Assembly (NCBI GenBank): GCA_002721815.1
Contig: PBLQ01000073.1
Span: forward strand, 1-62,118
Source of the DNA: Myxococcales bacterium
GTDB taxonomy: Bacteria; Myxococcota; UBA727; GCA-2721815
DNA length: 62,118 nt
Direction: 5' to 3'
The translations under genes were made by a program, and so were the position numbers. The notes under the pieces were generated by a model that worked only from the letters and a program-made list of their open reading frames with translations, ran no database searches and was not told where the DNA came from. Shown here piece by piece: positions 15,511-45,196 of the stretch. Every line of letters starts with the position of its first letter. Position 1 is the first letter of the stretch.

Positions 15511-15519
15511 TAAATGATT

Positions 15520-16371: not shown

Positions 16372-16865
16372 TGCCTAACGACGAACAACCGCACCTAAAC
16401 GTTAACGGTAAGAGGTTAACAATACAGAAATCATGGTTTGGAGAGAGCCTTTTATTCACTCTTAGAGAACGACTGGGACTATACGGATCAAAAAATGCAT
16501 GTGAACAAGGAGAGTGCGGATCTTGTTCAATCATGCTCGACGAAACCCTTGTGTGCGCATGCCTAGTACTGACAGGAAGCGCTACCGGCAGGGACATCAA
16601 AACAATTGAATCCCTCGCGCCTGAAGGATCACTCTCGACCATTCAACAAGCATTTATCGATACTGGAGCCATCCAATGCGGCTTTTGCACACCTGGCCTT
16701 CTAATCACAATTAAAGACTTTCTAGATGAGAACACCGACCCAACAGAGCTAGAAATCAGAGAAGCTATTTCTGGGAACCTTTGCAGATGTACAGGATACG
16801 GGCGGATCGTTGAAGCTGTCCGCATCGCCTCAAAGACGCATGACGAATCACAAGGGGCCAGCTAA
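16371..16865 (+). CDS. Molybdenum hydroxylase 2Fe-2S subunit (XdhC/CoxS type)
   Basis: The 164-residue small subunit carries two [2Fe-2S] clusters. The plant-ferredoxin-like N-terminal domain has its cysteines in NACEQGECGSCS with a further Cys in LVCACLV (about residues 43-65). The helical C-terminal domain has QCGFCTPG near 102 and NLCRCTGYGRIVEAV near 137. All eight ligands are present. It overlaps both neighbours by one base, so the three subunits are translated together. Electron flow would be Mo site to these clusters to the FAD subunit. Confidence 0.93.
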   Translation: MPNDEQPHLNVNGKRLTIQKSWFGESLLFTLRERLGLYGSKNACEQGECGSCSIMLDETLVCACLVLTGSATGRDIKTIESLAPEGSLSTIQQAFIDTGAIQCGFCTPGLLITIKDFLDENTDPTELEIREAISGNLCRCTGYGRIVEAVRIASKTHDESQGAS

Positions 16866-19167: not shown

Positions 19168-19173
19168 TTTGTG

Positions 19174-20421: not shown

Positions 20422-21371
20422 GTGGTCGACCGCTTCGTATTGGGGCCGGACAGCTAGGCCCTATTTCGAGAAATGAGTCCCGAAAAAATGTTGTAGATCG
20501 ACTTATTGCCCTTCTCCAAGAGGCCCATCGATCTGAGGTTGATCTTATCGTTTATCCTGAATTGGCCTTAACGACCTTTTTCCCTAGATGGTATTTAGAA
20601 GACGATTCAACGATAGACAGCTTTTTCGAGAGAGAAATGCCCAACCCTGAAACACAAAGATTATTTGATTCGGCAAAGAGCCTTGGCGTAGGTTTCTGCC
20701 TTGGCTATGCAGAGCTTACCCCTGATGGCCATAGGTACAACACCCAGATTCTCGTTGAACGTGATGGAACCATAGTAGGGAAATACCGAAAAGTTCACCT
20801 TCCGGGACACGAAGAATATGAGCCATGGAGAGAATTTCAACATCTTGAAAGAAGATACTTTGAGGGAGGTTCTAATTTTCCGACATGGAATGCTTTCGAT
20901 GGAATAGTGGGAATGGCAATATGTAACGACCGCCGATGGCCAGAAACTTATCGCTGTCTTGCTCTAGGTGGCGCTGAGCTAATCTTGATAGGGTATAACA
21001 CCCCTATTCATTACGCTCCGGACCCTTCGCAGAATAAACTAGCAAGTTTCCATAATCATCTGGTAATGCAGGCTGGTGCTTACCAAAACGGGTGCTTTGT
21101 GGTTGGGGTAGCAAAAGGAGGACTAGAAGAAGGAGTCGATTCATTAGCTGAAAGTTGCATTATTGCTCCGACTGGTGAAATTGTCTCCTCCGCTACTGGT
21201 TCAGGCGATGAGCTAGTTATAGCTGATATTGATTTTGACCTATGCAATAACTACAAAAACACAGTCTTTGACTTTAATAGATACAGAAGACCAGAAATAT
21301 ACAGCCCGATTACCGATCAAAAGGGTACAATTACGCCTGCAGAAGGAAGGGGGACCAATGACTTCCTTTGA
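20418..21371 (+). CDS. N-carbamoyl-D-amino acid hydrolase-like nitrilase-family enzyme
   Basis: This is a carbon-nitrogen hydrolase of 317 residues with the Glu-Lys-Cys triad at Glu48 (YPELALTTF), Lys125 (YRKVHLPG) and Cys169 (ICNDRRWPE). The segments PELALTTFFPRWY, KYRKVHLPGHEEYEP and NDRRWPETYR are close to those of D-carbamoylases, which free D-amino acids from N-carbamoyl derivatives made by D-hydantoinase. A hydantoinase-type gene lies at 35020, making this pairing attractive. Beta-ureidopropionase is the main alternative. The start overlaps the M20 gene (ATGA) and the end overlaps the fused hydroxylase by 14 bp. Confidence 0.85.
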   Translation: MSGRPLRIGAGQLGPISRNESRKNVVDRLIALLQEAHRSEVDLIVYPELALTTFFPRWYLEDDSTIDSFFEREMPNPETQRLFDSAKSLGVGFCLGYAELTPDGHRYNTQILVERDGTIVGKYRKVHLPGHEEYEPWREFQHLERRYFEGGSNFPTWNAFDGIVGMAICNDRRWPETYRCLALGGAELILIGYNTPIHYAPDPSQNKLASFHNHLVMQAGAYQNGCFVVGVAKGGLEEGVDSLAESCIIAPTGEIVSSATGSGDELVIADIDFDLCNNYKNTVFDFNRYRRPEIYSPITDQKGTITPAEGRGTNDFL

Positions 21372-23934
21372 GTTAAACGGAATAAAAGTCACCGTAAAAG
21401 GGAACCACCCTCACTTGCTTGCTGCCTTAAGAGATGAACTCGGAATTATTTCCCCCAAAGATGGATGTGCCCCCAGCGGACAATGTGGATGTTGCACAGT
21501 CATAATGAACGATAAGGCTCGAATATCTTGTCAACTTTCTGTGGAACGAGCAGAGAATGCAAAAATACAGACTCTTGAAGGCATCGACCCAGATGAATTG
21601 AACAAAATGGGTGCTGCATTCGCTGCTTGCGGAGCTCTCCAATGCGGGTTTTGTACTCCTGGAATCATGATTAGAACCAAAGTTTTGATAGATAAAAAGG
21701 GAGACAAGCTCGAGCGTGAATACGCCGCTCGTCATCTTGGTGCTCATCTTTGCCGTTGCACTGGATACATCAAAATTTTGGATGCCATGGAAGCGCTAGC
21801 TAAGGATTCGGTCCCTACAGCCACTCCTCTTGAAGGAATTGGGTCTAGTGGTTTAAAGTACGAGGCCGAAGACCTCGCCACTGGTAGAAGACCTTTCATC
21901 GATGACATGCAGCCCGACGGCCTTCTTCACGGAGCTTTTAAGCTTTCTGATCACGCTAGGGCTGAAATCATATCGATTGATACCTCAGCCGCTGAAGCCC
22001 TAGACGGTGTGATTCGTGTCTTCACTGCAGCCGACGTTGATGGAGAGCTTCGTGTCGGATTGATACATAAGGACTGGCCAGTCTTTATTCCGATCGGAGG
22101 ACGAACTAGCTATCTAGGAGATGTCCTAGCCCTTGTGGTCGCAGAAGATAGGACTACCGCTAGAGAAGCGGCAGAATTAATTCAAATTACGTATAAAGAG
22201 TTGCCAATAATCACAGACCCCATCAAAGCACTAGACAGTGATGAAGATGCAGTATGGGGATTGGAAGGAAATGTCCTCTCCACCTCAACCTACAAACGCG
22301 GGGATCCAGATTTTTCATTCGACGAATGCGCACATGTGGTTTCAGAAACATTTCAGACACAAAGAGTTGATCATGCTTTCGTAGAACCAGAATCGACACT
22401 GGCCACACTTGATGCAAACGGAAAGCTTTATGTTTATAGCGGCGGGCAAGGCATCTGGGATGATAGAAATGATATAGCACGCGTGCTAGGAATCGATCCG
22501 TCAGAAGTCATAGTAGAACTGGTCTCTAATGGCGGAGCTTTCGGTGGGAAGGAGGACATGTCTAACCAGGCACAGACAGCTCTCGCAGCATGGCTGTTAC
22601 AAAAACCTGTGAAGACAACCCTCTCTCGCGAAGAGTCTCTACTGATTCATAGCAAACGACATCCGATTAAGCTTCAATACAAGGCTGGATGTAACGAGGA
22701 CGGAGAGCTACAAGCACTATCCGTTTACATGGTTGGTGATTCAGGCCCATATGCGTCAGTAGGGATGAAAGTTTTAGAGCGCGCCGCAGGACACGCAAGT
22801 GGGCCATACGTTGTACACAACATTGCAGTTGAAGCAATCGCTGTTAGAACGAATAACTCAGTTTGCGGAGCATTCAGAGGATTCGGCGCTAATCAAGCTC
22901 AGTTCGCTATGGAAGGCGTTATGGACCGGCTAGCTAATCTCGTTGGCATTTCAGGATGGGAGATCAGAAATAGGAACGTGATCACCGCTGGGTCAGTATG
23001 GGGACCAGGACAAATTATGGATGAAGGTTCTTTAGGGGCCCAAGCCTGCTTAGACGCTGTAAAGGGTGCGTACGATACAGCTATATCTGATGGGAAATCA
23101 GTTGGGATTGGGCTTGGCCTGAAGAATTCAGGATTGGGTAACGGATTCAAAGAAGTTGCAAAAGCTGTCATCCGTTTCTGCGAAGACGGGCGTGTACAAG
23201 TTCGCCACTGCTGGACAGAAATGGGTCAAGGCGTTCATACTGTTGCAGCTCAAGTTGCTATAGAAGAACTTGGGATTTCAGCTTCTACGATCGACGTAAT
23301 AGTTGACACGACGCGCGAATTAGGAGCTGGACAAACAACTGGAAGCCGAGGAACCCTAATGGGGGCTGGAGCAGTTCGTGACGCCTGCAAAAAAGCAATT
23401 GAGGGAGGAAGAGTAGTCGGTCACGACTATGAGGGTGAATACCGAATTGATTGGACGAATGCGTTATCTGAGAATGTAGAAAATCCAATCATTCATTCTA
23501 CATTCGGGTACGCTGCCCAAGTAGTTATATTAGATTCCGAAACTGGAAATATCGAAAAGGTTGTCGCTGCTCATGATGTAGGAAGAGCTGTGAACCCCCT
23601 CCTATGCGAAGGACAAATCGAGGGGGCCGTTCATATGGGATTAGGTTACGCACTCTCTGAAGGGTTTCCATGCGATGAAACCGGACGGCCTAAAAATACT
23701 ACGCTAAAAAGTCTAGGAGTCATTCGTCCTAAAGATATGCCTCCTGTTGATGTCATTCTTGTGGAATCCCCTGAACCCAATTCACCATACGGAATTAAAG
23801 GAGTAGGCGAGATTGGACTCGTTCCTACTGCGGGTGCGGTTGCTGCAGCATTCTTTTCTCATGACGGAGAATGGCGGACTGAGCTTCCAATCCAGAACGT
23901 ATCTAATCGTGAAAGGTCTAATGCGTGGATTTAG
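21358..23934 (+). CDS. Fused 2Fe-2S / molybdopterin large-subunit hydroxylase
   Basis: This single 858-residue chain joins the two-cluster Fe-S module to the Mo-binding module, with no FAD domain between. Cluster ligands are in CAPSGQCGCC near residue 38, QCGFCTPG near 96 and HLCRCTGY near 130. The Mo part has GGAFGGKED near 395, GAFRGFGANQ near 505, EMGQGVHTV near 622 and IKGVGEIG with the catalytic Glu near 815. This two-domain layout is like the Mop-type aldehyde oxidoreductases (about 900 residues) and E. coli XdhD. The start at 21358 has AGGAAGGGGG upstream and lies within the nitrilase gene. The electron acceptor is unclear: the FAD subunit at 15520 may be shared, or another partner used. 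Confidence 0.87.
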   Translation: MTSFELNGIKVTVKGNHPHLLAALRDELGIISPKDGCAPSGQCGCCTVIMNDKARISCQLSVERAENAKIQTLEGIDPDELNKMGAAFAACGALQCGFCTPGIMIRTKVLIDKKGDKLEREYAARHLGAHLCRCTGYIKILDAMEALAKDSVPTATPLEGIGSSGLKYEAEDLATGRRPFIDDMQPDGLLHGAFKLSDHARAEIISIDTSAAEALDGVIRVFTAADVDGELRVGLIHKDWPVFIPIGGRTSYLGDVLALVVAEDRTTAREAAELIQITYKELPIITDPIKALDSDEDAVWGLEGNVLSTSTYKRGDPDFSFDECAHVVSETFQTQRVDHAFVEPESTLATLDANGKLYVYSGGQGIWDDRNDIARVLGIDPSEVIVELVSNGGAFGGKEDMSNQAQTALAAWLLQKPVKTTLSREESLLIHSKRHPIKLQYKAGCNEDGELQALSVYMVGDSGPYASVGMKVLERAAGHASGPYVVHNIAVEAIAVRTNNSVCGAFRGFGANQAQFAMEGVMDRLANLVGISGWEIRNRNVITAGSVWGPGQIMDEGSLGAQACLDAVKGAYDTAISDGKSVGIGLGLKNSGLGNGFKEVAKAVIRFCEDGRVQVRHCWTEMGQGVHTVAAQVAIEELGISASTIDVIVDTTRELGAGQTTGSRGTLMGAGAVRDACKKAIEGGRVVGHDYEGEYRIDWTNALSENVENPIIHSTFGYAAQVVILDSETGNIEKVVAAHDVGRAVNPLLCEGQIEGAVHMGLGYALSEGFPCDETGRPKNTTLKSLGVIRPKDMPPVDVILVESPEPNSPYGIKGVGEIGLVPTAGAVAAAFFSHDGEWRTELPIQNVSNRERSNAWI

Positions 23935-24995
23935 CTATAAACCAGACCCATGGCATGGTTTGCGCACACCACCACCTCTACTCATCTTTAGCTCGAGGAA
24001 TGCCCGGGCCAGCTGCCCCTCCCCATTCGTTCCTAAAAATTCTTGAAACAGTTTGGTGGAAACTTGATCAGGCTCTTGATCTAGAAACAATATTCTGGTC
24101 AGCAAAATTAGGAGCGTTAGAAGCACTTGAAACTGGGACAACATGCATAATAGACCATCATGAATCTCCAAATGCTATCGAAGGATCGCTTTCAGCCATT
24201 GCCGATGCATGTTCGGAAGTTGGGGTGAGAGTTAATACTTGCTATGGGATAACTGACCGCCATCCAGCATCAGATTTCCCCCCGAATTTCATGACTGAAG
24301 GAGCACGTCTAGGGCTTGAAGAAAACCGTCGCTTCTTAAGCGAGGGCGGTAACGGAATGGTAGGTCTTCATGCGGCTTTTACCTGCTCTGATGAAACTCT
24401 AGAGAATGCAACTGCATTGGCAAGAGAATTTAATGTAGGGATCCATACCCATGTAGCCGAAGGAAAAATAGATAAGGCCGCCCCCAATAGACTACGTAGT
24501 ATTTCTGAAGATAATTGGATCCTCGCCCATGGAGTCCACTTGGATGATCATCACGGTATCCGTGGAACGATCATTCACAATCCGCGTTCAAACATGAATA
24601 ACTCTGTTGGGTATGCGGCGCCCAAACGATTTGTAAATCCTGTTGGCTTAGGCACTGACGGAATAGGCGCTGACATGTTTGACGAATTTCGAGTCGGCTA
24701 TGCCCGTTTACGAGAGAACGACATCACCGAATCACCTCTAGCCGTGTGGGAAATGCTAGATGTAAATCAGAGCCTCTTCCCAGATTGTCTTCAGGACATA
24801 GTAACTTGGTCTTACCCCAAAGTAGACCCTTGGCATCTAGCATTCTCACCGGGGGTTAAGCCAAAAGATATCGTTATCGCAGGGAAACAAGTAATGAAAG
24901 ATGGAATTGTGATGACAATTGACGTAGATGAGGTTAGATCGAAATCAGCAGAAGTTGCTTCGAAACTATTTAAGAGAATTGGTGATTCACTGTGA
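23925..24995 (+). CDS. SsnA-like amidohydrolase lacking the N-terminal strand domain
   Basis: This is an amidohydrolase-superfamily enzyme resembling the chlorohydrolase SsnA. The metal site looks complete: [13 protein letters not shown] near residues 14-26, GTTCIIDHH near 72, GLHAAF near 146, GIHTHVAEG near 173, HGVHLDD near 204 and GTDGIGAD near 244; [10 protein letters not shown] is characteristic of the group. The protein begins almost at the first metal ligands, so the roughly 55 residues that normally form part of the beta-sandwich are missing. The C-terminal part is also short (356 residues against about 440). GTG 23925 overlaps the preceding gene by 10 bp; ATG 23955 is an alternative. 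Deamination or dechlorination of a ring compound is the family chemistry; activity of this short form is uncertain. Confidence 0.75.
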
Positions 24996-25999
24996 CACAA
25001 CCAGTAGCTATATATCTTCAAGATGCCCACTTAATCCAAGATGCAATGAAATACGCGAAGTATGCCGAAGAACAGAACTTCGATGCTGTCTGGCAAGCAG
25101 ACTCGAGACTTGTGCGTGAATGTTGCGTTCCTATGGCAGCTTTTGCGGCAAGTACAGAAAAAATCAGAATAGGAAGCGGAGTCATAGACTGTTGGACCAG
25201 AAACCCAGCTCGAATAGCATCAACATTCTCTACCCTCGATGATCTAGCTCCAGGTCGAATCATTCTAGGTATTGGAGCTTGGTGGGATCCGCTTGCCGCA
25301 AAGGTAGGAATTGAACGGAAACGACCATTGAGGGTAATGCGGGAAGTAGTTGAGTCTGTTCGCGCACTTTTGCAATGTGATGGACCAGTTACATATAAGG
25401 GCGACTTTGTAGATCTAGACGGGGTCGAACTTGACTATGTTCATCAAGAACGACGCGCAAAAGACGTTCCTATTTACATTGGAGCAACAGGCATGAAAAT
25501 GATGGAATTGACAGGGAAAATTGCTGATGGAGTGGTCCTAAACTACATGGTCGAACCCGCATATAATCTTCGTGCTATGGATGCCCTCCAAATTGGCGCT
25601 AAATCTGTAGGGCGGGACTTTGATGAAATAGATAGACCTCAATTAATTGTGTGCTCCGTCGATGAAGACCGTCAAGCTGCTCTAGATGGAGCGCGACTTC
25701 TTCTCACACAATACCTCGGCCAGCAACCTCATATTATGGCAGCTAGCGGTGTAACTGATGAACTACTAAATGAAATCCATCAGGTATTAACGTGGCCTGC
25801 AACTCATGAAGAAGTTGTTGCCGCATCAAAACTAGTTCCCGATGATGTTGTGCAAAGATGTACCGCTTCCGGAACTCCAGAAGAAGCAAAAGAAAAAGTG
25901 AAGGAATACATTAACACTGGATGCACCACACCTATCCTCTACCCTTTAGGGCCAGACGTAAAACTAATGATCGACACATTCTCAAATTGGGAACTTTAA
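24992..25999 (+). CDS. LLM-class F420-dependent oxidoreductase
   Basis: This 335-residue (beta/alpha)8 flavin/F420 oxidoreductase resembles the methylene-tetrahydromethanopterin reductase group. Features are [19 protein letters not shown] near residues 19-37, [19 protein letters not shown] near 50-70, [18 protein letters not shown] near 80-97 and [20 protein letters not shown] near 157. The GTG start shares GTGA with the stop of the SsnA-like gene, so it belongs to the heterocycle operon. Its place there suggests a reduction or oxygenation step on a ring intermediate, loosely like the flavin enzyme RutA in pyrimidine breakdown. That role is inference only. Confidence 0.83.
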
Positions 26000-33716: not shown

Positions 33717-35009
33717 ATGACACGAATAGTTCTCCAAGGAGCCCGTTACCCAGGTGATATAGCTTTTGAGCATGGTGTTATCACTCAGATAGGAACGGTT
33801 ACTCCAAAATCAGGTGACATCAAAGTTCGTATTGACGGAGATATCGTGACTCCTGGCCTAATTAACACCCACCATCACTTATACCAATGGATGACCCGTG
33901 GCCACGCGTCTGGCTGTGACCTATTTCAATGGTTGACAACCCTATACCCTATCTGGGGTCGGATGAACGTAGAGGACGTCTATGCTGCAGCTTTAGTGGG
34001 GCTAAGTGAACTTGCTATGACTGGGTGCACAACTGCTTCAGATCACCATTACATCGTCCCGAACAACGATGATTCCGTTTTTGATGCGATTGTAGAAGCG
34101 GCAAAAGCAGTCGGTATCCGCCTCTTTCTCAGTCGAGGCTCAATGGACCTCGGCGAATCGTCTGGAGGGCTACCACCGGATAATCTAGTTGAAGACCGTG
34201 ACGCTATTCTTGCCTCTACACAAAGGGTAATCGAGGAACACCATGACGGAGACATGGTCCATGTTGTAGTTGCCCCATGTAGCCCCTTTTCTGTATCAAC
34301 AGAGCTGATGGTCGAATCTGCCGAACTCGCCCGAAAATATGGACTTCAGATGCACACGCATTTGTGTGAAACAATTGATGAACAAGACCATTGTTTAGAG
34401 CGCTTCGGCAAAAGACCTGTCATGCAATTAGTTGACTGGGGATGGGCAGGTGATGACGTGTGGCTAGCTCACGGAATTCATTTGACTAGCGATGAGATTT
34501 CCCTTCTTGGAAATGCGGGAACAGGAATCGCCCACTGCCCTTCATCTAACGCTCGCATTGCTGCTGGATTGTGTCCTGTTGTAGATTTCCGTAAAAATAA
34601 TGTACCTGTCGGATTAGGAGTAGACGGAGCTGCGAGTAATGAGGTAGGAGGTTTATTTGGTGAGATGCGCCAAGCGCTGTACACCGCTCGAATACGCGAA
34701 GAACAAGCTGACGCATTAATGCCTGAAGATGTTCTCGATATGGGCACTGTAGGCGGAGCCAGATGCTTAGGAATGGATAATCTTGGAATGATCGACGTTG
34801 GAAGTCCAGCAGATCTCGTAGTATGGCCAGGGAATGACTTGGGAGGAATCTCAGATCCAATAACAGGCCTTATCCTAGGACCTGACAGACGAGCAAAACA
34901 TGTCTTTGTAGCTGGTGAGCAACGGGTTCAAGATGGGCAGCTCATTGGAGTTGATATCCATGCTGCCCACCGGGAGCTTGCAGAACGTGCGCAGCTCTTA
35001 TGGGACTAG
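33717..35009 (+). CDS. 8-oxoguanine deaminase-like amidohydrolase
   Basis: This amidohydrolase of the SsnA/AtzB group has 430 residues, the expected length. Metal and active-site residues lie in NTHHHLYQWMTRG near 51-63, ASDHHYI near 106, QMHTHLCET near 216, LAHGIHL near 254 and GLGVDGAASNE near 301. The first half has the AtzB/8-oxoguanine-deaminase-like FQWLTTLYPIW segment near residue 70. These enzymes remove an amino or other leaving group from purine or triazine rings. With its complete N-terminal strands it contrasts with the shortened relative at 23925. The hydantoinase gene follows 10 bp later, so the pair may act in sequence on ring compounds. Confidence 0.83.
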   Translation: MTRIVLQGARYPGDIAFEHGVITQIGTVTPKSGDIKVRIDGDIVTPGLINTHHHLYQWMTRGHASGCDLFQWLTTLYPIWGRMNVEDVYAAALVGLSELAMTGCTTASDHHYIVPNNDDSVFDAIVEAAKAVGIRLFLSRGSMDLGESSGGLPPDNLVEDRDAILASTQRVIEEHHDGDMVHVVVAPCSPFSVSTELMVESAELARKYGLQMHTHLCETIDEQDHCLERFGKRPVMQLVDWGWAGDDVWLAHGIHLTSDEISLLGNAGTGIAHCPSSNARIAAGLCPVVDFRKNNVPVGLGVDGAASNEVGGLFGEMRQALYTARIREEQADALMPEDVLDMGTVGGARCLGMDNLGMIDVGSPADLVVWPGNDLGGISDPITGLILGPDRRAKHVFVAGEQRVQDGQLIGVDIHAAHRELAERAQLLWD

Positions 35010-35019
35010 GAGGTAAAAA

Positions 35020-36435
35020 ATGGGAGTGAAACTAATCAAAGGTGGAACAGTTGTCAATGCAACCCATGTCGGAGAAGCCGATGTACTAATTGAAGATGAA
35101 AAAATCGTGGGCGTCGTATCTCCGCATAGTGAAATAGCGATATCAGCTCTTAATGGTGATACTACCATCATTGATGCATCTGGAATGTATGTGATACCCG
35201 GTGGGGTCGATGCCCATGTACATTTGCAACTTCCGATGAGCCCTAAGGCAACATCAAGTGACACCTTTGCTTCAGGGACAGCTGCGGCCGCTTGGGGAGG
35301 AACCACTACCGTAATCGACTTCGCCGGACAAATAAAAGGAACAGCTATACCCACCGCTATTGAGACCCGCCTCGAGGAGGCATCTGGCCAATGCGCTATA
35401 GATTACGCTTTCCATCTTTCGGTAGGAGATGTGAACGAACAATCGCTCATAGACCTAAACAATATGCTCGATGAAGGAGTTAGCAGTTATAAGTTATTTA
35501 TGGCTTACCCTGACTCGTGGTATTCAGACGACGGTCAAATACTCCAAGTAATGCAGTTAGCAGCCGATACTGGTGCAATGATCATGATGCACGCCGAGAA
35601 CGGTATCGCTATTGATGTCCTTCGCGATCAGGCTTTCGAACGTGGCGCAACTGGATCCATCTGGCATGGCCGCACAAGGCCACCTGAACTGGAAGGGGAA
35701 GCCGCTCATAGAGCGATACAGCTTGCTGTAGTTGCAGGGTCTCCACTCTATATAGTCCATCTCTCTTCATCTAACGCTCTCAATGAGGTTGCCCGAGCTC
35801 GCAATGACGGGAAGAACGTTTTTGCTGAAACTTGCCCTCAATACCTATATCTCAGCTTGGAAGAACATCTCGATCAGCCAGGGATAGAGGGAGTTAGACA
35901 TATATGCTCACCCCCGCTTCGTAAATTAGGAGATGGGCATCAAGATAGTTTATGGAAAGGACTTCGAACCGATGACTTATCCGTTGTTGCTACAGACCAT
36001 TGTCCATTTTGTGATGCGGAGAAGATACTTGGGATTGACGATTTCCGACAGGCTCCTAACGGGCTTGGAGTGATCGAACATAGGATGGATTTACTGTTCC
36101 AAGGGGTTCTTCAAGGAGAAATAAGTCTTCAAAGATGGGTGGAGATATGCTCCACTACCCCAGCTCGCCTATTTGGCTTACAAGGAAGAAAAGGTGTGAT
36201 TGCGCCTGGAGCCGATGCTGATGTTGTAATTTACGACCCTAATAAGGCGCATGTCCTTGGGGTAGATACACATCATATGGCTATTGACCACTCTGCATGG
36301 GAAGGTGTCTCTGTTACGGGGCAAGCTATAAGTGTGCTGAGTAGAGGAAGCTTTGTGGTCCATAATCGGGAATTTGTTGGAGGACAAGGACATGGAAGGT
36401 TTCTTAAACGAAATATCCCAGATGTCCTTCGATAA
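35020..36435 (+). CDS. Dihydropyrimidinase / D-hydantoinase family cyclic amidohydrolase
   Basis: This enzyme opens dihydropyrimidine or hydantoin rings to N-carbamoyl products. The 471-residue protein has DAHVHLQLP near residues 64-72, the lysine to be carboxylated in SSYKLFMAY near 156, later His ligands in MMHAENG near 188 and YIVHLSSSNA near 243, and the metal-binding aspartate in ATDHCPF near 325. Substrate loops fit HyuA-like hydantoinases. GGAGGT upstream is a strong ribosome binding site. N-carbamoyl products would feed the D- and L-carbamoyl hydrolases at 19174-21371. It converges on the yqeC-like gene 25 bp away. Confidence 0.88.
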   Translation: MGVKLIKGGTVVNATHVGEADVLIEDEKIVGVVSPHSEIAISALNGDTTIIDASGMYVIPGGVDAHVHLQLPMSPKATSSDTFASGTAAAAWGGTTTVIDFAGQIKGTAIPTAIETRLEEASGQCAIDYAFHLSVGDVNEQSLIDLNNMLDEGVSSYKLFMAYPDSWYSDDGQILQVMQLAADTGAMIMMHAENGIAIDVLRDQAFERGATGSIWHGRTRPPELEGEAAHRAIQLAVVAGSPLYIVHLSSSNALNEVARARNDGKNVFAETCPQYLYLSLEEHLDQPGIEGVRHICSPPLRKLGDGHQDSLWKGLRTDDLSVVATDHCPFCDAEKILGIDDFRQAPNGLGVIEHRMDLLFQGVLQGEISLQRWVEICSTTPARLFGLQGRKGVIAPGADADVVIYDPNKAHVLGVDTHHMAIDHSAWEGVSVTGQAISVLSRGSFVVHNREFVGGQGHGRFLKRNIPDVLR

Positions 36436-36460: not shown

Positions 36461-37198
36461 TCAAGCAATTTCTTGAACAGCTTCAAAGGCAATAGCTACG
36501 ACATCGGTATCTTGATTCATCGAGTGAAGTGACTCAATCAGGACCTGTGCCTTTCGTTGGTTCACATCGTTGACTTTCGTAATTGCCACACAAAACTTGG
36601 ATTTTGTGGGCTTGGCTTTCTTTTGCCCCTCAGAGTGAAGAATCACTTTCGCTGCTCTTTCAGGTGTCAAATGATCATGAGGCATACATTCTGCTAGGTC
36701 CGCAACACGTTCGGGCCTGTGACAGCAGCTACTGATTACTTGACCAAGTGCGTCGGCCCCGATGGTGGAAATCATGAGATTACTGGAAGATGGAACAACA
36801 GGTTCAAATGCTGCGGGGGCCTTAAACGGAAGCCTGCGAGACCCATCGGCTTCAACTATGACATTATCTACATTCTGGAACCAGTGGTCACATAATGAGG
36901 GATCAACTCCTATAGCTTTTTCGCCTTGAACTTCCTTCCAGATCATAATTGGTGCTCCGTTTGAAATGTTTTGAATGATTTCATCTTCTGGTTCAAAATA
37001 GACGAGTAGAGATCGATTTTGATCAAACCCCATCTTTGTTGTGGAAGTTAAGATTGTCCTACCACGAAGCTGCTTACCAAGGGCGTGAAGAATGGTGGTT
37101 TTTCCTCCCCCTCCAACAATTGCTATGTGGTTTTTTATTTGTGGCGCATTTAGGCCTAAATAATTAGCTAACTCGGAAATTTGCAGTGGATCGACCAT
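36461..37198 (-). CDS. yqeC: YqeC-like putative molybdenum hydroxylase accessory protein
   Basis: This is a P-loop protein of 245 residues with IVGGGGKTTILHALGKQL near 28-45, TSTTKMGFDQ near 52, an IVEADGSRRLPFKAPA motif near 115-130 and EPVVPSS soon after. These match YqeC, named as a putative accessory factor of selenium-dependent molybdenum hydroxylases and found beside xdhD and ssnA in E. coli. Its exact job is not established. It follows an SDR gene by 33 bp and converges on the hydantoinase. I see no selA, selB or selD here, so a selenium link is untested. Confidence 0.8.
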   Translation of the reverse strand: MVDPLQISELANYLGLNAPQIKNHIAIVGGGGKTTILHALGKQLRGRTILTSTTKMGFDQNRSLLVYFEPEDEIIQNISNGAPIMIWKEVQGEKAIGVDPSLCDHWFQNVDNVIVEADGSRRLPFKAPAAFEPVVPSSSNLMISTIGADALGQVISSCCHRPERVADLAECMPHDHLTPERAAKVILHSEGQKKAKPTKSKFCVAITKVNDVNQRKAQVLIESLHSMNQDTDVVAIAFEAVQEIA

Positions 37199-38099: not shown

Positions 38100-38849
38100 A
38101 TGCCAGATATTTCTTCCTTGAGCCTGTCGTTTGATGAAATCAGCATGAGATTTCCAGATGGAACTGAAGCTTTGCTTGATGTATCCCTCAGTGTTGGCCC
38201 GAATGAATTTGTATCTGTGGTCGGCCCTTCTGGCTGCGGGAAGTCCACCTTATTGAATATTGCCTCAGGGTTACTCAAACCTACCTCCGGTTCGGTAGAG
38301 ATTGCTGATACGAGTATGGGATATATTTTCCAAGATCCTACTCTTCTCCCGTGGAGAACTGTTTTGAGGAATGTCGAACTTCTCTGCGAACTGCATCAGG
38401 TACCTAAGGAAGAAAGACGTAAAAGAGCACAGGAAGCAATAGATCTTGTGGGTTTAAGTGGATTTGAGAGACATTTTCCCAAGACTCTCTCCGGTGGGAT
38501 GAAAATGCGTACTTCCCTTGCGAGGACTTTGACTTTACACCCAAGAGTTTTTTTATTTGATGAACCTTTTGGGTCGCTTGATGAGATCACGAGGGAGAAG
38601 CTCAACGACGAAACACAACTCCTATTTCAGAAAGAAGGATTCTCGAGCCTCTTCATTACTCACTCTATTTCTGAAGCTGTTTACCTCTCGACAAAAGTCT
38701 ACGTCATGTCAGAACGACCTGGGAGAGTGATAGCCGAGTTCGATATTCCGTTTGATTATCCTCGAGTACCTGAGCAAAGGTTTGATCCTAACTTTGCTGA
38801 AGTATGTGGAGAAATTTCTAGCGCTCTTCGTGGAGTCGATCATGACTGA
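38100..38849 (+). CDS. ABC transporter ATP-binding protein (ThiZ/SsuB/TauB type)
   Basis: This is the ATPase subunit of an importer, 249 residues. Walker A GPSGCGKSTLL is near residues 41-51, the Q-loop in YIFQDPTLLPW near 78, the signature LSGGMKMRTSLARTL near 130 and Walker B VFLFDEPFGSLDE near 150, with the switch His in FITHSISEAV. The subfamily transports nitrate, sulfonates, taurine or thiamine precursors. GGAGG precedes the ATG. The permease gene overlaps by 8 bp, and the binding-protein gene behind a TPP riboswitch follows, which favours a thiamine-precursor role. Confidence 0.9.
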   Translation: MPDISSLSLSFDEISMRFPDGTEALLDVSLSVGPNEFVSVVGPSGCGKSTLLNIASGLLKPTSGSVEIADTSMGYIFQDPTLLPWRTVLRNVELLCELHQVPKEERRKRAQEAIDLVGLSGFERHFPKTLSGGMKMRTSLARTLTLHPRVFLFDEPFGSLDEITREKLNDETQLLFQKEGFSSLFITHSISEAVYLSTKVYVMSERPGRVIAEFDIPFDYPRVPEQRFDPNFAEVCGEISSALRGVDHD

Positions 38850-39717
38850 AGGCATTGGACATGTAATTCACGATAGTGAAAAGAACTCCTTGAAAGGAAG
38901 GAATCGTTTCCACCGTTTTCGGCTATTTTTTTCAAACCTTTTCCCTCCGGTTTTTTTCGGATCATTAATCATTGGGATCTGGTATCTAGTCTCTTACGCC
39001 ATACTTGACGAAAGTAGGAGATTCCTGCTTCAACCTCCTCATAAAGTGCTAACTAATGGCTTTTTAGATTGGAGCGGACGTGATGGCATGAGCGAAATGC
39101 TGCAATCTCTATGGTCCTCGACGAAGGTTGCCGGTATCGGGCTGTTTTTTGCGATATTGGTAGGCTTTCTCCTTGCTGTAATTATGAGTCAAGCAGCATC
39201 AGTGGAAAAGGCCTTATTTCCGTATTTAGTTACTTTACAAGCAATACCGATTCTAGCCGTCGTGCCTTTGATCATGTTTTGGTGGGGGTCTGGCCAAACG
39301 TCAAGGGTTGTCGTGTGCATTCTTATATCCCTCTTTCCTATTATCGTCAATACCCTTTTCGGCTTGCAGTCAGCGGAAAAGGATATGCATGCGCTATTTA
39401 CTCTTCATAACGCCAATAGGTTTGTAAGACTCAGAAAACTTATGATTCCTGCTGCATTGCCTGCTATCTTCGCTGGTTTGAGGATCTCTGCTGGGCTTTC
39501 TGTGATCGGCGCAATCGTTGGTGATTTCTTTTTTGGAAAGGGCGAGGTCGGCCTTGGGCAATTAATTAAGCGATTTTCAAGCGAGCTACAAGGAGAGGAA
39601 CTACTTACTGCTGTGATTCTCTCATCTGCTCTTGGTGTTGCGGTCTTTCTCCTATTTACCTGGATCCAGAACAAAGCAATCGGCAATTGGTCAGAAAGGG
39701 CTGACTTAATTTCATAG
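38842..39717 (+). CDS. ABC transporter permease
   Basis: This 291-residue membrane subunit is of the binding-protein-dependent inner-membrane component family. Hydrophobic segments lie near residues 36-55, 90-115, 135-155, 160-180, 215-235 and 255-280. The coupling loop that docks on the ATPase is FVRLRKLMIPAALPAIFAGL near 193-212, matching the EAAxxxG loop region. Start is set at ATG 38842, overlapping the ATPase stop by 8 bp; a longer frame from 38752 would lie inside the ATPase gene. With its neighbours it forms a likely thiamine-precursor importer. Confidence 0.87.
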   Translation: MTEGIGHVIHDSEKNSLKGRNRFHRFRLFFSNLFPPVFFGSLIIGIWYLVSYAILDESRRFLLQPPHKVLTNGFLDWSGRDGMSEMLQSLWSSTKVAGIGLFFAILVGFLLAVIMSQAASVEKALFPYLVTLQAIPILAVVPLIMFWWGSGQTSRVVVCILISLFPIIVNTLFGLQSAEKDMHALFTLHNANRFVRLRKLMIPAALPAIFAGLRISAGLSVIGAIVGDFFFGKGEVGLGQLIKRFSSELQGEELLTAVILSSALGVAVFLLFTWIQNKAIGNWSERADLIS

Positions 39718-39819
39718 CTAAAATAGGAATCCTAATGATGCAATATCTGTAGTTAGCATTTTGAGTTTCAAGATCCCTAGGAATTATGCATCCGTTCGAA
39801 ATTGTCGACTAAGCTAAAG

Positions 39820-39909
39820 CCACCGGGGAGCTTGGAACGCCAGGCTGAGAAAGTGGTCATTCCACCACTGACCCTATACCTGATCTGGATAATGCCAGCG
39901 GAGGGAACG
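39820..39909 (+). promoter_or_regulatory. TPP (thi-box) riboswitch
   Basis: The conserved thiamine pyrophosphate aptamer is clear: GGGGAGC at 39825, GGCTGAGA at 39843-39850, a P3 hairpin formed by AGTGGT and ACCACT, GACCC, then ACCTGATCTGGATAATGCC and AGCGGAGGGAA. The GGAGGG at 39900-39905 is both the 3' conserved part of the aptamer and the Shine-Dalgarno sequence for the ATG at 39914. Ligand binding should therefore hide the ribosome site directly. No separate terminator hairpin is seen, so control is probably translational. Confidence 0.93.
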
Positions 39910-39913
39910 AGAG

Positions 39914-41056
39914 ATGAAAAAAGAGACATTTATAAGACTATTGCTAATCACAATGGTGCCTTTATCCCTTAGTGGGCTACTCGCCTGCGGAGGAAACACA
40001 AATGAAAAAAAAGATAAAGATGCAGCAGCGCAAGGCTTGGCCTCCTGCCCGAATCCAATCATTATTCAGACAGACTGGTATCCCGAGTCAGAGTACGGGG
40101 CGACTTACGAACTTTTCGGAGACGGCATCTACTTGATAGATAATGAAAATCGCTCAGTTTCTGGCACCCTTCACGATGGAGAAGTTGATACCGGCATTGG
40201 ACTTGAGGTAAGGACTGGCGGACCAGCTATTGGCTTCACCCCAGTAGCAAGTCACATGTATACCGATACTAGTATTACCTTGGGCTATGCAAATACAGAG
40301 GGTCAAATCACCCGGTTCGATAGTGCCCCTCTTCTGTCAGTGGTTGCGCCACTTGAAAAAAATCCACAAATGATCATGTGGGACCCGGATACCTACCCAG
40401 ATATTGAGTCCATTGAAGACTTAGGAAAGAGAAAAGTCACAATCAGCGTATTTGGACCAGAAGTATTCTCAGAGGTCTTTATCGCACAAGGGATATGGTC
40501 TGCAGATCAGGTAGATCCTTCGTATGACGGATCCCCAGCTAACTTTATTGCAAATCAGGGATCGATCGCCCAGCAAGGATTTGCTTCCGCAGAGCCATAC
40601 AATTACAAAAATACATACGAAGAGTGGGGCAAAGATGTTAAATATCAGCTCCTCCACGACGCTGGATTCCCTGTTTATTCTCAAACCTTAGCGATTAGAT
40701 CTGACGATCAAGTCTCTCTCGATTCCTGTTTGAAAGATTTGGTTCCGATAATTCAGAGGGCTGTTGTGAGCTTTAGTTCGAACCCTGACAATACCAACGC
40801 CCTAATTGTTGATGTGGTTGAATCGTTCAATAGTTCTTGGGTTTACGGCGAAGAGATCGCTAATTATTCGGTAAACATCCAATCGGAATTAGGTCTTGTA
40901 GGAAATGGAACGAATGACATAGTTGGAGACATGGATCAAGATCGGGTCCAAGAGGTGATTGACCTTATGGAAAAAGCTGGAATCAATACAAAAAAGATAG
41001 GCCCTTCAGATATTTTTACAAACGAGTACATTGATGAGAGCATCGGGTTTAAGTAA
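39914..41056 (+). CDS. Thiamine-precursor ABC transporter binding lipoprotein (ThiY-like)
   Basis: This is an extracytoplasmic solute-binding lipoprotein of 380 residues. The signal peptide is hydrophobic from about residue 9 to 22 and ends in a lipobox LLAC with the Cys at about residue 25. The mature part (QTDWYPESEYGATYELFGDG, DTGIGLEVRTGGPAIGF, VTISVFGPEVFSEVF) follows the NMT1/ABC binding-protein fold. The TPP riboswitch immediately upstream identifies a thiamine-related ligand, such as a pyrimidine moiety; the uptake role is inferred from that and from the neighbouring ABC genes. The switch controls only this gene and not the ATPase-permease pair before it. Confidence 0.87.
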   Translation: MKKETFIRLLLITMVPLSLSGLLACGGNTNEKKDKDAAAQGLASCPNPIIIQTDWYPESEYGATYELFGDGIYLIDNENRSVSGTLHDGEVDTGIGLEVRTGGPAIGFTPVASHMYTDTSITLGYANTEGQITRFDSAPLLSVVAPLEKNPQMIMWDPDTYPDIESIEDLGKRKVTISVFGPEVFSEVFIAQGIWSADQVDPSYDGSPANFIANQGSIAQQGFASAEPYNYKNTYEEWGKDVKYQLLHDAGFPVYSQTLAIRSDDQVSLDSCLKDLVPIIQRAVVSFSSNPDNTNALIVDVVESFNSSWVYGEEIANYSVNIQSELGLVGNGTNDIVGDMDQDRVQEVIDLMEKAGINTKKIGPSDIFTNEYIDESIGFK

Positions 41057-42334: not shown

Positions 42335-42351
42335 CACTCAACCATTTCTAT

Positions 42352-43554
42352 CTAACGAAGAACTCCAGTTAATAGAACCCCCACTCGGTCTGAATGCTGC
42401 AGATAGCCTAATTTCATTGCGGACATTACCCCCGCTAGACCGGCCGATCCAGTAGGTTCAGCATTTATACCTTGTAGATTCACTAAATCGTAGGCTATGG
42501 ATATTTCTTTTTCTGAAGCTAGGATACTTTCTCCTCCTGTATAAGCGAGGGCTTTTACAACGCCAATCCAGTCATAGGTGACATCATCGAGGATCCCAGT
42601 TGCGAGACTTTCTGGTTTCTCCCAAGGAGACATTAACGATGCAGCATTAGAAATTGCGTAATCGATCTTTTCTTGGGCTGCTACTTCTTGAGGAAGACCT
42701 TTCCAGGCTCTATCGAACGGCGCACACCCTTCAGCTTGGACAGCGCATACTTTAGGAACCGTCTCCAGAATTCCGAATTCTTTAGCTTCTAATAGGCCTA
42801 TGGTGCAGCTTGTAAGCAGGGCTCCACCTCCGACTTGTATAAAGAGATGATCTATAGCATTAGACGAAATCACCTCTGCTAGTTCCCACCCCAACGTTCT
42901 TCCACCGTCTAGAGCCAAAATATTTTCAGAGGCTTGGACCGTAAAAGGAAGTGAACCTTTATTGATGGCTTCTTGAAACTGATTCATACATGGATCCCCC
43001 AGCTCGCCCGGCTTCCTGTCGCATACATGTATGGTGGCATCCAGCTTCTCAAGCTGATTCACTATATTTGGACTTGCCCAAGTAGGTATATAGACATCTA
43101 TCGGCCTATTGACAGCCCGGGCAACCGTTGCTGCGCCTATTGCTGCATTTCCACATGAAGATATCGCTAATCTTTGGTCTGTATGAGTGGCATTAACAGC
43201 TAAATGGAGTAGAACTCCCATTAAGTGCCTTGCTTTATGGGATCCGGCAACATTGTTGGTTTCGTCCTTCCAAAGACAGAAACTTGGAAGCATATCTGAA
43301 GCGCCTATCCATGTTCCTGTAGGAGTTATTCGGAACCCGGAACCATCTATAGTTGCAATTGCTTTATCAATTTTGGTTACTAACGAAACATAATCTTCAT
43401 CGGTCCAGCCTTTGTCAATAGCATACTGCCATGACCATAGGAACTTTCTCCATTTAATATATGGGGTTGATGCAGACTCTTCAGGTGTTGGCCAAGTCGC
43501 CCCAGGAGGAGTAGGAAGCCAGGATTGACTTGAGGCATTTGTTTGTTCAAGCAC
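42352..43554 (-). CDS. Fold-type II PLP-dependent enzyme (threonine synthase/cysteine synthase-like)
   Basis: This 400-residue member of the tryptophan-synthase-beta superfamily has its PLP lysine in NVAGSHKARHL near residue 104, the phosphate-cradle SSCGNAAIGAAT near 131 and VGGGALLTSC near 243. It is related to threonine synthase and cysteine synthase, but the reaction is not clear. Its GTG start directly abuts the stop codon of a second fold-II enzyme of 503 residues (TAG then GTG), so the two are coupled and may form a complex or act in sequence. The N-terminal WLPTPPGATWPTPEES segment resembles no common family I know. Confidence 0.72.
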   Translation of the reverse strand: MLEQTNASSQSWLPTPPGATWPTPEESASTPYIKWRKFLWSWQYAIDKGWTDEDYVSLVTKIDKAIATIDGSGFRITPTGTWIGASDMLPSFCLWKDETNNVAGSHKARHLMGVLLHLAVNATHTDQRLAISSCGNAAIGAATVARAVNRPIDVYIPTWASPNIVNQLEKLDATIHVCDRKPGELGDPCMNQFQEAINKGSLPFTVQASENILALDGGRTLGWELAEVISSNAIDHLFIQVGGGALLTSCTIGLLEAKEFGILETVPKVCAVQAEGCAPFDRAWKGLPQEVAAQEKIDYAISNAASLMSPWEKPESLATGILDDVTYDWIGVVKALAYTGGESILASEKEISIAYDLVNLQGINAEPTGSAGLAGVMSAMKLGYLQHSDRVGVLLTGVLR

Positions 43555-45066
43555 CTAGACCGTCACACCTGTCTGATCATTGAACTCTTCGACCATAATG
43601 TCCCATGCCGGCGTCATAGTGTGAAGGTAGTCCCAGAATTTCTGATTCCGCCGAGCGTCAAAATCTTCTACACTAACTCCTTGTTGCTCTACCCATGTGT
43701 AATAACCTAAGTTAAAAATTCTCTCCCTACCTATTTCATCCAATTGCAATAGATGTTCGGTATTAATCTCCTTAAGAAAAGTGGATGCTATCTCGCTGGC
43801 ATGACCCATATTGAAATCACTATTGAATTCACTTTGCAACAATTGTTGTTTTTCACTCTCGTAAAGCTCAGAACCATCAGTTGCAACAGTTATCACAACA
43901 TCGTTTTCGCCAAGGTTGAGAGCTTTTGCAGTCTTTATTGCAGCTGTCATATTGCAGATTGAAGAGAAACCAAAATGGCAGAGATTCATAACAATTTCTG
44001 CATCTATCCCCATTTCTTCAACAAGGAATTTTTTCCCCTCATCAGTTGTAAAAACTAGATTCAACCTATCAGTTGCTTGATCACTGACTCCTACGACTAT
44101 GTCCGTATTCATGACGTTATGAATTAGAGGGATATGTTTATCTCCGATTCCCTGGATATTGTGCTCCCCGTATCCGTTGTAGAGCATGGTAGGGCATTCT
44201 AATGCTTCAACGGCAACGATCTTTGCTCCGAAATCGTCCTTTAATCTATCTCCTGCTCCTAGGGTTCCTGCAGAACCAGAAGCAGATACGAATGCTTTCA
44301 ATTCAAGATCAGGGTTAGCCATTCGCATTGTCTCGAAGACATGACCTAGAGCTTTCCCAGTTACCTTGTAATGTCCTATGTGATTCGCGTACTCTGAGAA
44401 CTGATTAAAGATGAAGTTGGTTTCGTCCTTCTGCAGTTCATTGCACGCGTCATAAATCTCTTTGACATTGCTTTCTGATCCAGGTGTTCGTATTACGTCC
44501 TCTGGATCTAGTACCCACTTGTCTAACCAGTCGAAACGCTCTTTGCTCATGTTCTCTGGCAGCACTGCGACACCTCGACTTTGCAATAGAGTCGAGATTG
44601 CTATTCCTCCGCGAGCATAGTTTCCGGTAGATGGCCACACTGCACGATGTATATCAGGATTGAACTGTCCACTAACTACTCGTGGCAAAAAGCATGAATA
44701 TGCTGCGAGTACTTTATGTGCAGTAATCATTGGAAAACGGTTACCGAACAAAAGAACAATTTGAGCATCAACACCGGTTAATTCCTTCGGAAGAAGGATA
44801 TGTTCCGGCAAAGCTGTTTGGCGAGTACTCTGAAAAGAATTGTACCAATGCACACGAAAGAGATTAAGTGGGTGAGCTTCGTTTGGGTCAATTTCTTCTA
44901 ATTTAGTAAGGATCTTTTCGGGAATTGAAGAAGGGTTGGAAAGTTGTTCAAAGGTAGGTAATAGAATCCCAGCTTCTCGGAATCTGCTGATGGATCTCTC
45001 ATAGTTTTTCTGATCCACAACTGACTGCAAGAGTCCATATTTCGCTATATCGATATCCAAAGTCAT
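43555..45066 (-). CDS. Fold-type II PLP-dependent enzyme, long form
   Basis: This 503-residue protein has PLP-enzyme features: a candidate lysine in FPMITAHKVLAAYSC near residue 117, PSTGNYARGGIAIST near 144-158, and a glycine-rich ASGSAGTLGAGDRL near 260. An extended N-terminal region of about 90 residues and a C-terminal tail (WDYLHTMTPAWDIMVEEFND) exceed the usual 330-400 residues. It heads a two-gene unit with the enzyme directly downstream. A cysteine synthase or lyase is possible; the substrate is unknown. The ATG at 45066 follows a TACCGT hexamer by 6 nt, and the divergent P450 gene starts 130 bp away. Confidence 0.7.
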   Translation of the reverse strand: MTLDIDIAKYGLLQSVVDQKNYERSISRFREAGILLPTFEQLSNPSSIPEKILTKLEEIDPNEAHPLNLFRVHWYNSFQSTRQTALPEHILLPKELTGVDAQIVLLFGNRFPMITAHKVLAAYSCFLPRVVSGQFNPDIHRAVWPSTGNYARGGIAISTLLQSRGVAVLPENMSKERFDWLDKWVLDPEDVIRTPGSESNVKEIYDACNELQKDETNFIFNQFSEYANHIGHYKVTGKALGHVFETMRMANPDLELKAFVSASGSAGTLGAGDRLKDDFGAKIVAVEALECPTMLYNGYGEHNIQGIGDKHIPLIHNVMNTDIVVGVSDQATDRLNLVFTTDEGKKFLVEEMGIDAEIVMNLCHFGFSSICNMTAAIKTAKALNLGENDVVITVATDGSELYESEKQQLLQSEFNSDFNMGHASEIASTFLKEINTEHLLQLDEIGRERIFNLGYYTWVEQQGVSVEDFDARRNQKFWDYLHTMTPAWDIMVEEFNDQTGVTV

Positions 45067-45072
45067 ACATTC

Positions 45073-45078
45073 ACGGTA
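45073..45078 (-). promoter_or_regulatory. -10 hexamer of a leaderless promoter for the PLP enzyme pair
   Basis: Reverse-strand TACCGT, then GAATGT, then ATG at 45066 (6 nt spacing). Confidence 0.5.
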
Positions 45079-45182
45079 TCGCGTTCTAGTTCTTCGGAGA
45101 CCGTCCTGGCAGTGTTTCTTAAACTATCTGTTAACAACCTATGAATATTACTTACCAAAGAGCATAGACCCCATATAGAAGC

Positions 45183-45188: not shown

Positions 45189-45196
45189 GAAGAAAT

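Follow-up and report, generated by a model that had tools for sequence, protein, structure and literature searches.

A conserved pair of fold-type II PLP enzymes among reductive urate degradation genes, and its possible role in place of YgeX

The gene pair and its surroundings

Two genes for fold-type II PLP enzymes of the PALP family (PF00291) lie end to end on the minus strand of contig PBLQ01000073.1, the whole 62,118-nucleotide stretch of which was analysed and is referred to here as the window. Gene A (43555..45066) starts with ATG and encodes a cysteine-synthase-like protein of 503 residues; gene B (42352..43554) starts with GTG and encodes a threonine-synthase-like protein of 400 residues. 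An initial annotation of this DNA had described abutting members of this superfamily, unequal in length, with the TAG of one directly followed by the GTG of the next, and the sequence bears this out. Plus-strand positions 43555-43557 read "cta" (TAG on the minus strand) and adjoin "cac" at 43552-43554 (GTG on the minus strand), so that the stop codon of A and the start codon of B abut with 0 nt between them. The leaderless promoter proposed for the pair in that annotation received no support. A scan of 42300-45300 with a sigma-70-like pattern, whose reach is limited to promoters of that type, found none upstream of A; the sole match lies inside B, and one match is fewer than the mean of 5.7 in shuffled sequences. 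The contig looks like Acidimicrobiia DNA that was misbinned in its assembly, and it probably does not belong to the genome in question (G000).

The window encodes a series of further enzymes, on the plus strand unless stated otherwise. Xanthine dehydrogenase genes (15514..19114) comprise a FAD subunit below the curated cut-offs, an iron-sulfur-type ORF recognized by eye, and a PucD homologue (838.8 bits, cut-off 783.65). Next are two candidate ureido-group removers, a hydrolase of the AllC/hydantoinase-carbamoylase family (19171..20421; 459.4 bits, cut-off 452) and a nitrilase/carbamoylase-like hydrolase (20418..21371; 109.1 bits to N-carbamoylputrescine amidase, cut-off 410.25). An XdhD-like xanthine dehydrogenase of the selenium-dependent type (21352..23934; 784.1 bits, below the cut-off of 830.45) precedes an SsnA-like amidohydrolase (23925..24995; 252 bits to PRK07203, below the cut-off of 444), the end of which overlaps by 4 nt a gene for an LLM-class F420-dependent-type oxidoreductase (24992..25999), a candidate yanthine reductase. 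Farther along are an amidohydrolase of the 8-oxoguanine deaminase family (33717..35009; 540.3 bits, cut-off 532), a HyuA-like dihydropyrimidinase/D-hydantoinase (35020..36435; 500.6 bits, cut-off 393.25), the selenium-cofactor protein YqeC on the minus strand (36461..37198; 156.1 bits, cut-off 73.05), and an ABC transporter that is a candidate for purine uptake (38100..41056, plus strand), with an ATPase and permease below named cut-offs and a putative binding protein assigned from its position. SsnA-like, XdhD-like, HyuA-like and candidate ureido-removing proteins are thus encoded together, the combination by which clusters for reductive urate degradation are recognized, and by gene content the window carries parts of that pathway, the yge/ygf pathway of E. 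coli.

Family assignment and predicted folds

Both proteins exceed the PF00291 gathering score of 35 (A with 41.8 bits, B with 122 bits), and all 38 A sequences compared match the family (E up to 0.01). Across these 38 sequences K118, S146-T-G-N149 and G264-S265-x-G267-T268 are invariant in A, as are K107, S133-C-G-N136 and G242-G243 across 34 sequences of B. We take K118 with STGN in A, and K107 with SCGN in B, to be the candidate PLP lysine and S-x-G-N loop of the fold-type II pattern. As the initial annotation had noted, neither protein is a clean match to a common biosynthetic enzyme, and both fall far below the curated cut-offs for named enzymes. Among the families listed, the top named match of A is cysK (TIGR01139; 74.8 bits, where 350.95 is required) and that of B is threonine synthase PRK05638 (94.1 bits, cut-off 421); B scores 31.8 bits against the threonine synthase model TIGR00260, short of its cut-off of 167.1. 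TIGR03528, the YgeX model (cut-off 532.25 bits), is absent among the families listed for either protein at E up to 1. A reading of A and B as the OrtA/OrtB thiolase was dropped, there being no OrtB model among those families.

The predicted model of A (pLDDT 90.1) has as fold matches, among those listed, cysteine synthase and cystathionine beta-synthase with Z 29-32, and also SbnA and O-ureido-L-serine synthase. That of B (pLDDT 92.6) matches threonine synthase with Z 37-38 for most entries and diaminopropionate ammonia-lyase with Z 31-33, with serine racemases also among the matches listed. Profile-to-profile comparison of A with B detected no relation, which makes a recent tandem duplication unlikely.

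Conservation of the pair

The pairing of A with B is real and old, and far from a chance arrangement. The initial annotation had suggested a search for the pair in other genomes; with a codon-model caller for ORFs in the relatives' loci, the 80 nearest A loci, drawn from five phyla, were examined, and in 73 a B homologue follows A on the same strand, the edges of the two matches being at most 522 nt apart. Three of the seven loci without B are cut off by a contig end. The junction itself, from which the initial annotation had suggested a fixed stoichiometry, is not conserved in exact form, its gaps ranging from overlap to more than 100 nt. In a sample of 198 genomes of the Acidimicrobiia class, B above 450 bits accompanies type-I A in 25 of 27 genomes and was found in none outside them. 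In 27 of 29 cases of a second A lineage (type II), a diverged threonine-synthase-like partner is encoded upstream, no more than 1 kb away. With B downstream in type I, a ThrC-like partner therefore occurs in two gene orders.

Alphaproteobacterial A genes are arranged differently: among 11 genomes one has B, no adjacent B was seen in nine, and one is cut by a contig end on the B side. The initial annotation had held that homologues usually found apart and assigned to different pathways would speak against a joint role; this is not so for the lineage of the window, but it does describe most alphaproteobacterial A (the nine of 11). In one further clade (L064, L067, L090 and L096) A has no B next to it, and a relative of YgeX is encoded in the genome or at the locus; a Rhodospirillales locus (L084) has A, B and YgeX together in one cluster.

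Genes within 10 kb on each side of A were counted at the same 80 loci by their best reference match of at least 100 bits. Selenium-type xanthine dehydrogenase occurs at 20, SsnA-like at 17 and E. coli-type SsnA at 3 loci; AllC-like hydrolases follow at 16, LLM oxidoreductases and nitrilases at 8 each, YgeW at 7, YgeY and YqeA at 6 each, HyuA at 5, YgfK at 4 and YgeX at 3. Many loci of freshwater Actinomycetota have the pair and no pathway gene within 10 kb. Of the 12 type-II loci, seven have the gene order carbamate kinase, ThrC-like partner, A, with carbamoyltransferases nearby, and eight have two carbamoyltransferases.

Distribution relative to SsnA and YgeX

An SsnA-like protein is encoded in 68 of the 198 class genomes and A in 56, every one an SsnA genome (Fisher 7e-38, calculated with relatedness of the genomes ignored). 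Each of the 12 SsnA genomes that lack A encodes a relative of YgeX scoring 237-402 bits, in nine of them within 30 kb of SsnA, and no SsnA genome lacks both. Five class genomes have A together with a YgeX relative, and the complementarity of the two within SsnA genomes gives a one-sided Fisher value of 8e-10, again with relatedness ignored. A TIGR03528 search of 30 A genomes returned one match over the cut-off, five more at 230-356 bits, and at most 57 bits or nothing in 24, a set that includes G000, probably not the true genome of the contig.

The association is weaker elsewhere. From the rows of matches, 28 of 34 chosen A genomes were read as having short-form or E. coli-type SsnA, and no clear SsnA-like protein was found in the other six (G051, G059, G071, G072, G074 and G075). 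In Alphaproteobacteria at most six candidates were scored per genome, a depth at which misses are possible, and no SsnA-like match emerged in 10 of the 11 A genomes. Since these genomes mostly lack both an SsnA-like match and an adjacent B, the A family appears to work elsewhere as well.

Proposed role of A and B

We consider it somewhat probable that the A-B pair functionally replaces YgeX, and that its two products would convert 2,3-diaminopropionate to pyruvate and ammonia. This reading rests on the conserved pairing, the intact PLP motifs, the predicted folds, the pathway context and the complementarity with YgeX in one class; what the pair acts on and what it makes, how A and B share the work, and whether they join in one complex are points that we infer. 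2,3-Diaminopropionate was among the substrates put forward in the initial annotation, and it fits the genomic context. In the proposed scheme urate would be reduced to yanthine, and the rings reduced and opened, by the selenium-type xanthine dehydrogenase, the F420-type LLM reductase, the SsnA-like protein and the hydantoinase; both ureido groups would be removed by two carbamoylase-like hydrolases, a task that in other lineages would fall to carbamoyltransferases plus carbamate kinase; and A with B would yield pyruvate and ammonia from diaminopropionate by way of a PLP-bound aminoacrylate.

A point against this scheme is that it calls for two proteins where the E. coli pathway has a single PLP enzyme, YgeX (PMC12507026). 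A further reading, which we regard as unlikely, makes A and B the subunits of an obligate heteromer, a PLP diaminopropionate lyase at the end of an F420-type reductive urate pathway in Actinomycetota of marine and fresh waters. Its ThrC-like subunit would have joined the CysK-like A on two occasions (as A-B and as B'-A). We know of no two-subunit lyase for the diaminopropionate reaction.

It is tentatively possible that A and B are separate, co-transcribed enzymes for two stereoisomers, D- and L-diaminopropionate, or that one is a racemase, with no complex formed; this would be one form of the YgeX stand-in and not its opposite. HyuA is described as D-stereospecific, and YgeX as acting equally well on either isomer of diaminopropionate (PMC12507026); the serine racemases among the fold matches of B and the lack of a detectable profile relation between A and B are in keeping with two distinct activities. 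Against this reading stands the clade of L064, L067, L090 and L096, which keeps A with no B beside it while encoding a YgeX relative. Action one step earlier is improbable. Here A and/or B would eliminate the ureido group of albizziin or 3-amino-2-ureidopropionate with release of urea, by-passing free diaminopropionate. Ureido-removing enzymes adjoin A and B, SbnA and O-ureido-L-serine synthase are among the fold matches of A, and arginase-family genes lie near alphaproteobacterial A in three of 10 loci (L137 and L144 by Pfam, L138 by eye). The fold matches of A are superfamily-wide, however, and elimination by the pair would be redundant, since the window retains the AllC-like and nitrilase-like candidates, and eight of the 12 type-II loci two carbamoyltransferases.

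That A and B are an ordinary biosynthetic cysteine synthase and threonine synthase, neighbours by chance, is very improbable. Their nearest solved relatives are CysK and ThrC, and in the second lineage the upstream partner of L124 passes threonine synthase cut-offs (197 bits to TIGR00260), but A and B score far under every named-family cut-off listed, and A occurs in the class sample only with SsnA. Moreover, of the 17 A-B genomes tested, 16 encode a threonine synthase apart from B that passes the TIGR00260 cut-off, so that the housekeeping ThrC is a protein other than B.

Reductive urate degradation has only recently been worked out in gut bacteria (PMC12507026, PMC12990295). The distribution of A and B suggests a different terminal step in many Actinomycetota, including marine Acidimicrobiia, and in scattered Pseudomonadota, Myxococcota, Acidobacteriota and Eisenbacteria; cultured species among the carriers are Telmatospirillum siberiense, Rhodoplanes elegans and Propionivibrio dicarboxylicus. 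Surveys that look for YgeX would therefore miss the carriers, and those based on PF00291 would enter them under YgeX. The role of A and B, if confirmed, would supply a function for two widespread families recognized here as PALP and nothing more specific, and would suggest that purine nitrogen is used in the open ocean.

Comparison with known systems

Among open-licence titles and the beginnings of abstracts, we recognized no published account of the A-B pair. CysK and cystathionine beta-synthase resemble A in their PLP motifs and in fold (Z 29-32 over 278-322 residues), but A differs in its length of about 500 amino acids, its added N- and C-terminal parts and its catabolic context. B shares the fold of ThrC (Z 37-38, rmsd 2.1-2.5 over 312-354 residues for most entries), and an N-terminal CxxC is present in 12 of 17 B sequences checked, although not in B of the window; B nevertheless forms its own long-branch clade.

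YgeX of E. coli (2,3-diaminopropionate ammonia-lyase, TIGR03528) is likewise a fold-type II PLP enzyme, is encoded alongside SsnA-type reductive urate genes, as A and B are in the window, and ends the pathway. The B profile finds the YgeX structure 4d9g (E 5e-5), and hhalign aligns the two with 91% probability over 200 columns, whereas A gives a probability of 3.5% and no convincing profile match. YgeX is one gene and A-B are two, and B and YgeX fall in separate clades of a partner tree that omitted L100, L101 and L120 (wrong-frame extracts with no YgeX match) and L015 (a poor extract). Like YgeX, A is a PLP enzyme of genomes with SsnA: an SsnA-like protein accompanies A in 56 of 56 A genomes of the class sample, and less strictly elsewhere (28 of 34 chosen genomes, 1 of 11 Alphaproteobacteria).

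The reductive urate clusters of E. coli, C. difficile and Chloroflexota, as given in PMC12507026, have XdhD-like, SsnA, HyuA and ureido-removing enzymes in common with the window, and those of Chloroflexota also a putative F420-dependent reductase. A figure legend of that paper colours neighbourhoods by PF00291 as "YgeX", so that an A-B pair would not be told apart from YgeX there; the PF00291 gene of those clusters is YgeX, and in the window it is the A-B pair.

The gene pair and its products

Gene A (43555-45066, minus strand, 503 aa) is followed directly by gene B (42352-43554, minus strand, 400 aa, GTG start), the stop codon of A abutting the start of B in the window sequence, as the initial annotation had described. 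Its placement of both products in one superfamily also holds, both being PF00291 fold-type II PLP proteins, and its remark that neither cleanly matches a common biosynthetic enzyme is borne out by scores far under every NCBIfam cut-off listed. The leaderless promoter that it proposed ahead of the pair was not found in a sigma-70-like scan of 42300-45300. Among proteins of solved structure, A comes nearest in sequence to cysteine synthases and B to threonine synthases; profile comparison of A with B detected no relation. Invariant are K118, S146-T-G-N149 and G264-S265-x-G267-T268 in 38 A sequences, and K107, S133-C-G-N136 and G242-G243 in 34 B sequences; from the general fold-type II pattern we take these to be the PLP lysine and phosphate-side loops. 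The AlphaFold model of A (pLDDT 90.1, pTM 0.92) matches cysteine synthase, beta-cyanoalanine synthase and cystathionine beta-synthase at Z 29-32. That of B (pLDDT 92.6, pTM 0.92) is closest to threonine synthase (Z 37-38 for most entries), followed by threonine deaminase, serine racemase and diaminopropionate ammonia-lyase (Z 31-34). Judged from these modeled folds alone, the reaction of A and B is not deducible. Upstream of A, window positions 45197-50568 encode a cytochrome P450, two short-chain dehydrogenases and an acyl-CoA-ligase-like protein (the latter three named by eye), a block that is collinear in loci L017 (Acidimicrobiaceae) and L020.

Conservation of the pair

Searching genome contigs with A as query gave at least 582 confirmed relatives, of which only the best 80 were kept, so that the locus set is biased to close kin. 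Sought in these other genomes, as had been proposed, B lies downstream of A on the same strand, with at most 522 nt between match edges, at 73 of the 80 loci. Three of the other seven are truncated by a contig end, and four (L064, L067, L090 and L096) have no B despite 10 kb of sequence; these four are one clade in the A tree. As this Acidimicrobiia clade is nested inside the A-B group, B was likely lost there. Among 77 called pairs (starts from our own calling script, two genomes entered twice), 16 junctions overlap, 38 have gaps of 0-30 nt, 17 of 31-150 nt and six are longer; the zero-gap junction recurs in L017-L021. By these sequence comparisons, A and B constitute a conserved unit.

A in relation to YgeX

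When 30 A genomes were searched with TIGR03528, the family of the E. coli 2,3-diaminopropionate ammonia-lyase YgeX, one scored above cut-off (that of locus L084), five reached 230-356 bits and 24 gave at most 57 bits or no match. A stronger comparison came from a single class sample of 198 genomes, drawn from the class of the L017 genome, taken as Acidimicrobiia. An SsnA-like amidohydrolase (profile A5, E <=1e-60) was called in 68, and A in 56: 27 of type I (>600 bits) and 29 of type II (480-566 bits, one split in two), with 16 other matching genomes, at 55 bits or less, set aside as ordinary relatives. All 56 A genomes also carry SsnA-like genes, A lying within 30 kb on the same contig in 23. 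Every one of the 12 SsnA genomes lacking A has a YgeX relative (237-402 bits, none above cut-off), within 30 kb of SsnA in nine, and no SsnA genome among the 68 is without both. A and a YgeX relative occur together in five class-sample genomes, and three YgeX relatives belong to genomes that lack SsnA. Fisher tests, which ignore phylogeny, give 7e-38 for the association of A with SsnA and, among the SsnA genomes, 8e-10 for A against YgeX relatives. In the B-less clade, L067 and L096 have a YgeX-like gene after the SsnA-like gene, and a YgeX relative is present in the genomes of L064 and L090, the two that were searched. On this comparative evidence, the A-B pair is best explained as a putative alternative end of reductive urate degradation, taking the place of YgeX.

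Two gene orders and their partners

Of the 27 genomes with type-I A, 25 have B (>450 bits), and no B at this score occurs in genomes that lack type-I A; of the two others, G196 carries a YgeX relative in its place and G261 has a fragment of B on a separate contig. Type-II A, one clade in the A tree, has a threonine-synthase-like partner within 1 kb upstream in 27 of 29 genomes; in G208 A starts 764 nt from the contig end, and in G260 a weak upstream partner (34 bits) is seen. A tree of the partner proteins puts B in one clade and the type-II partner in another, located among threonine-synthase-like proteins; this suggests recruitment on two occasions or a deep split. A separate threonine synthase above cut-off was found in 16 of 17 A-B genomes tested (G029 has none, its close relative G030 has one), and by this measure B is not the sole threonine synthase of its genomes. 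Of three type-II genomes tested, G257 has the partner only, and in G150 and G212 another copy above cut-off accompanies the partner.

Neighbors of type-II A were identified from their best match or by eye, and by NCBIfam for L124 only. In seven of 12 loci (L124-L127, L129, L131 and L134) carbamate kinase directly precedes partner and A, and the fetched stretch holds two carbamoyltransferase genes; in L135 two carbamoyltransferases precede partner and A, with SsnA-like after them. In eight of the 12 loci the two carbamoyltransferases differ, one aspartate-type and one ornithine/YgeW-type, and perhaps each acts on one ureido group. A nitrilase-like gene lies nearby in L130 and L132; neither it nor the carbamoyltransferase set was seen in the fetched stretches of L128 and L133.

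A beyond the class sample

In 327 alphaproteobacterial genomes (the class of Telmatospirillum), A was found in 11. With no more than six candidates scored in each genome, an SsnA-like gene was found in only one of the 11, a genome that also has B. Adjacent B was not seen in nine of the other ten, and in the tenth, L144, the contig stops 182 nt beyond A. At E <=1e-40, YgeX relatives were found in 69 genomes of the sample, none of them among the 11 with A. The surroundings of A vary: arginase-family genes occur in L137 and L144, RidA-type and ureidoglycolate-lyase-family genes in L137 and CoA transferases in L136, and L145 has members of the ornithine-cyclodeaminase, M20 and M24 families and, upstream, a further PALP gene. 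A without adjacent B (L136-L145) probably reflects a different catabolic use of the family. In a further set of 34 selected A genomes, we read 28 as having short-form SsnA (roughly 200 bits upward, with the match beginning around profile position 44-59) or the E. coli type; a clear SsnA was not obtained in G051, G059, G071, G072, G074 and G075. These results count against the reading of the pair as an alternative to YgeX: A is a wider family, whose tie to urate is complete in the class sample, and elsewhere frequent, not universal.

Provenance of the contigs

The window contig matches L017, from an Acidimicrobiaceae MAG, both in G+C (0.456) and in tetranucleotide composition (distance 0.07-0.10), and its 33.7-55 kb part is collinear with L017 at 84-88% nucleotide identity; five other stretches of its assembly have G+C 0.515-0.52 and lie at 0.33-0.40 from the window. 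Such composition indicates that the contig is most likely misbinned, and results from that assembly outside it therefore carry no weight. Loci L086 (Propionivibrio sp. MAG) and L089 (Pleomorphomonas sp. MAG) show the same set of genes in matching positions around A-B, so one of these two contigs is probably misbinned; if so, the YgeX relative counted for the genome of L089 may come from another organism.

Urate-pathway context and known systems

According to PMC12507026 and PMC12990295, reductive urate degradation starts with conversion of urate to yanthine by XdhD; yanthine is reduced by YgfK, UacX or, in Chloroflexota, a putative F420 enzyme; and SsnA, HyuA, removal of two ureido groups and conversion of diaminopropionate to pyruvate by YgeX follow. 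Between 15.5 and 41 kb the window encodes Se-type xanthine dehydrogenase (XDH), SsnA-like, F420-type LLM oxidoreductase, AllC-like and nitrilase-like proteins, together with PucD XDH, the 8-oxoguanine deaminase family, hydantoinase, YqeC and an ABC transporter, a set that by homology represents parts of this pathway. Purine clusters surround the pair in distant genomes as well, e.g., Telmatospirillum siberiense, Rhodoplanes and Rhodovulum, in the order RpiR-type regulator (by eye), Se-type XDH, SsnA-like, A, B; the Se-type XDH of L079 scores 899 bits, above cut-off. In the 80-locus scan, many freshwater Actinomycetota loci had none of the E. coli or window reference proteins within reach.

The LLM oxidoreductase and SsnA-like genes abut at 23925-25999. 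A putative F420-type enzyme is described for Chloroflexota in PMC12507026, and the similar presence of an LLM gene beside SsnA-like in this actinobacterial contig makes its product a candidate yanthine reductase outside that phylum. At the other end of the pathway, a point against replacement of YgeX is that E. coli performs the step with this one protein, whereas the A-B pair would employ two.
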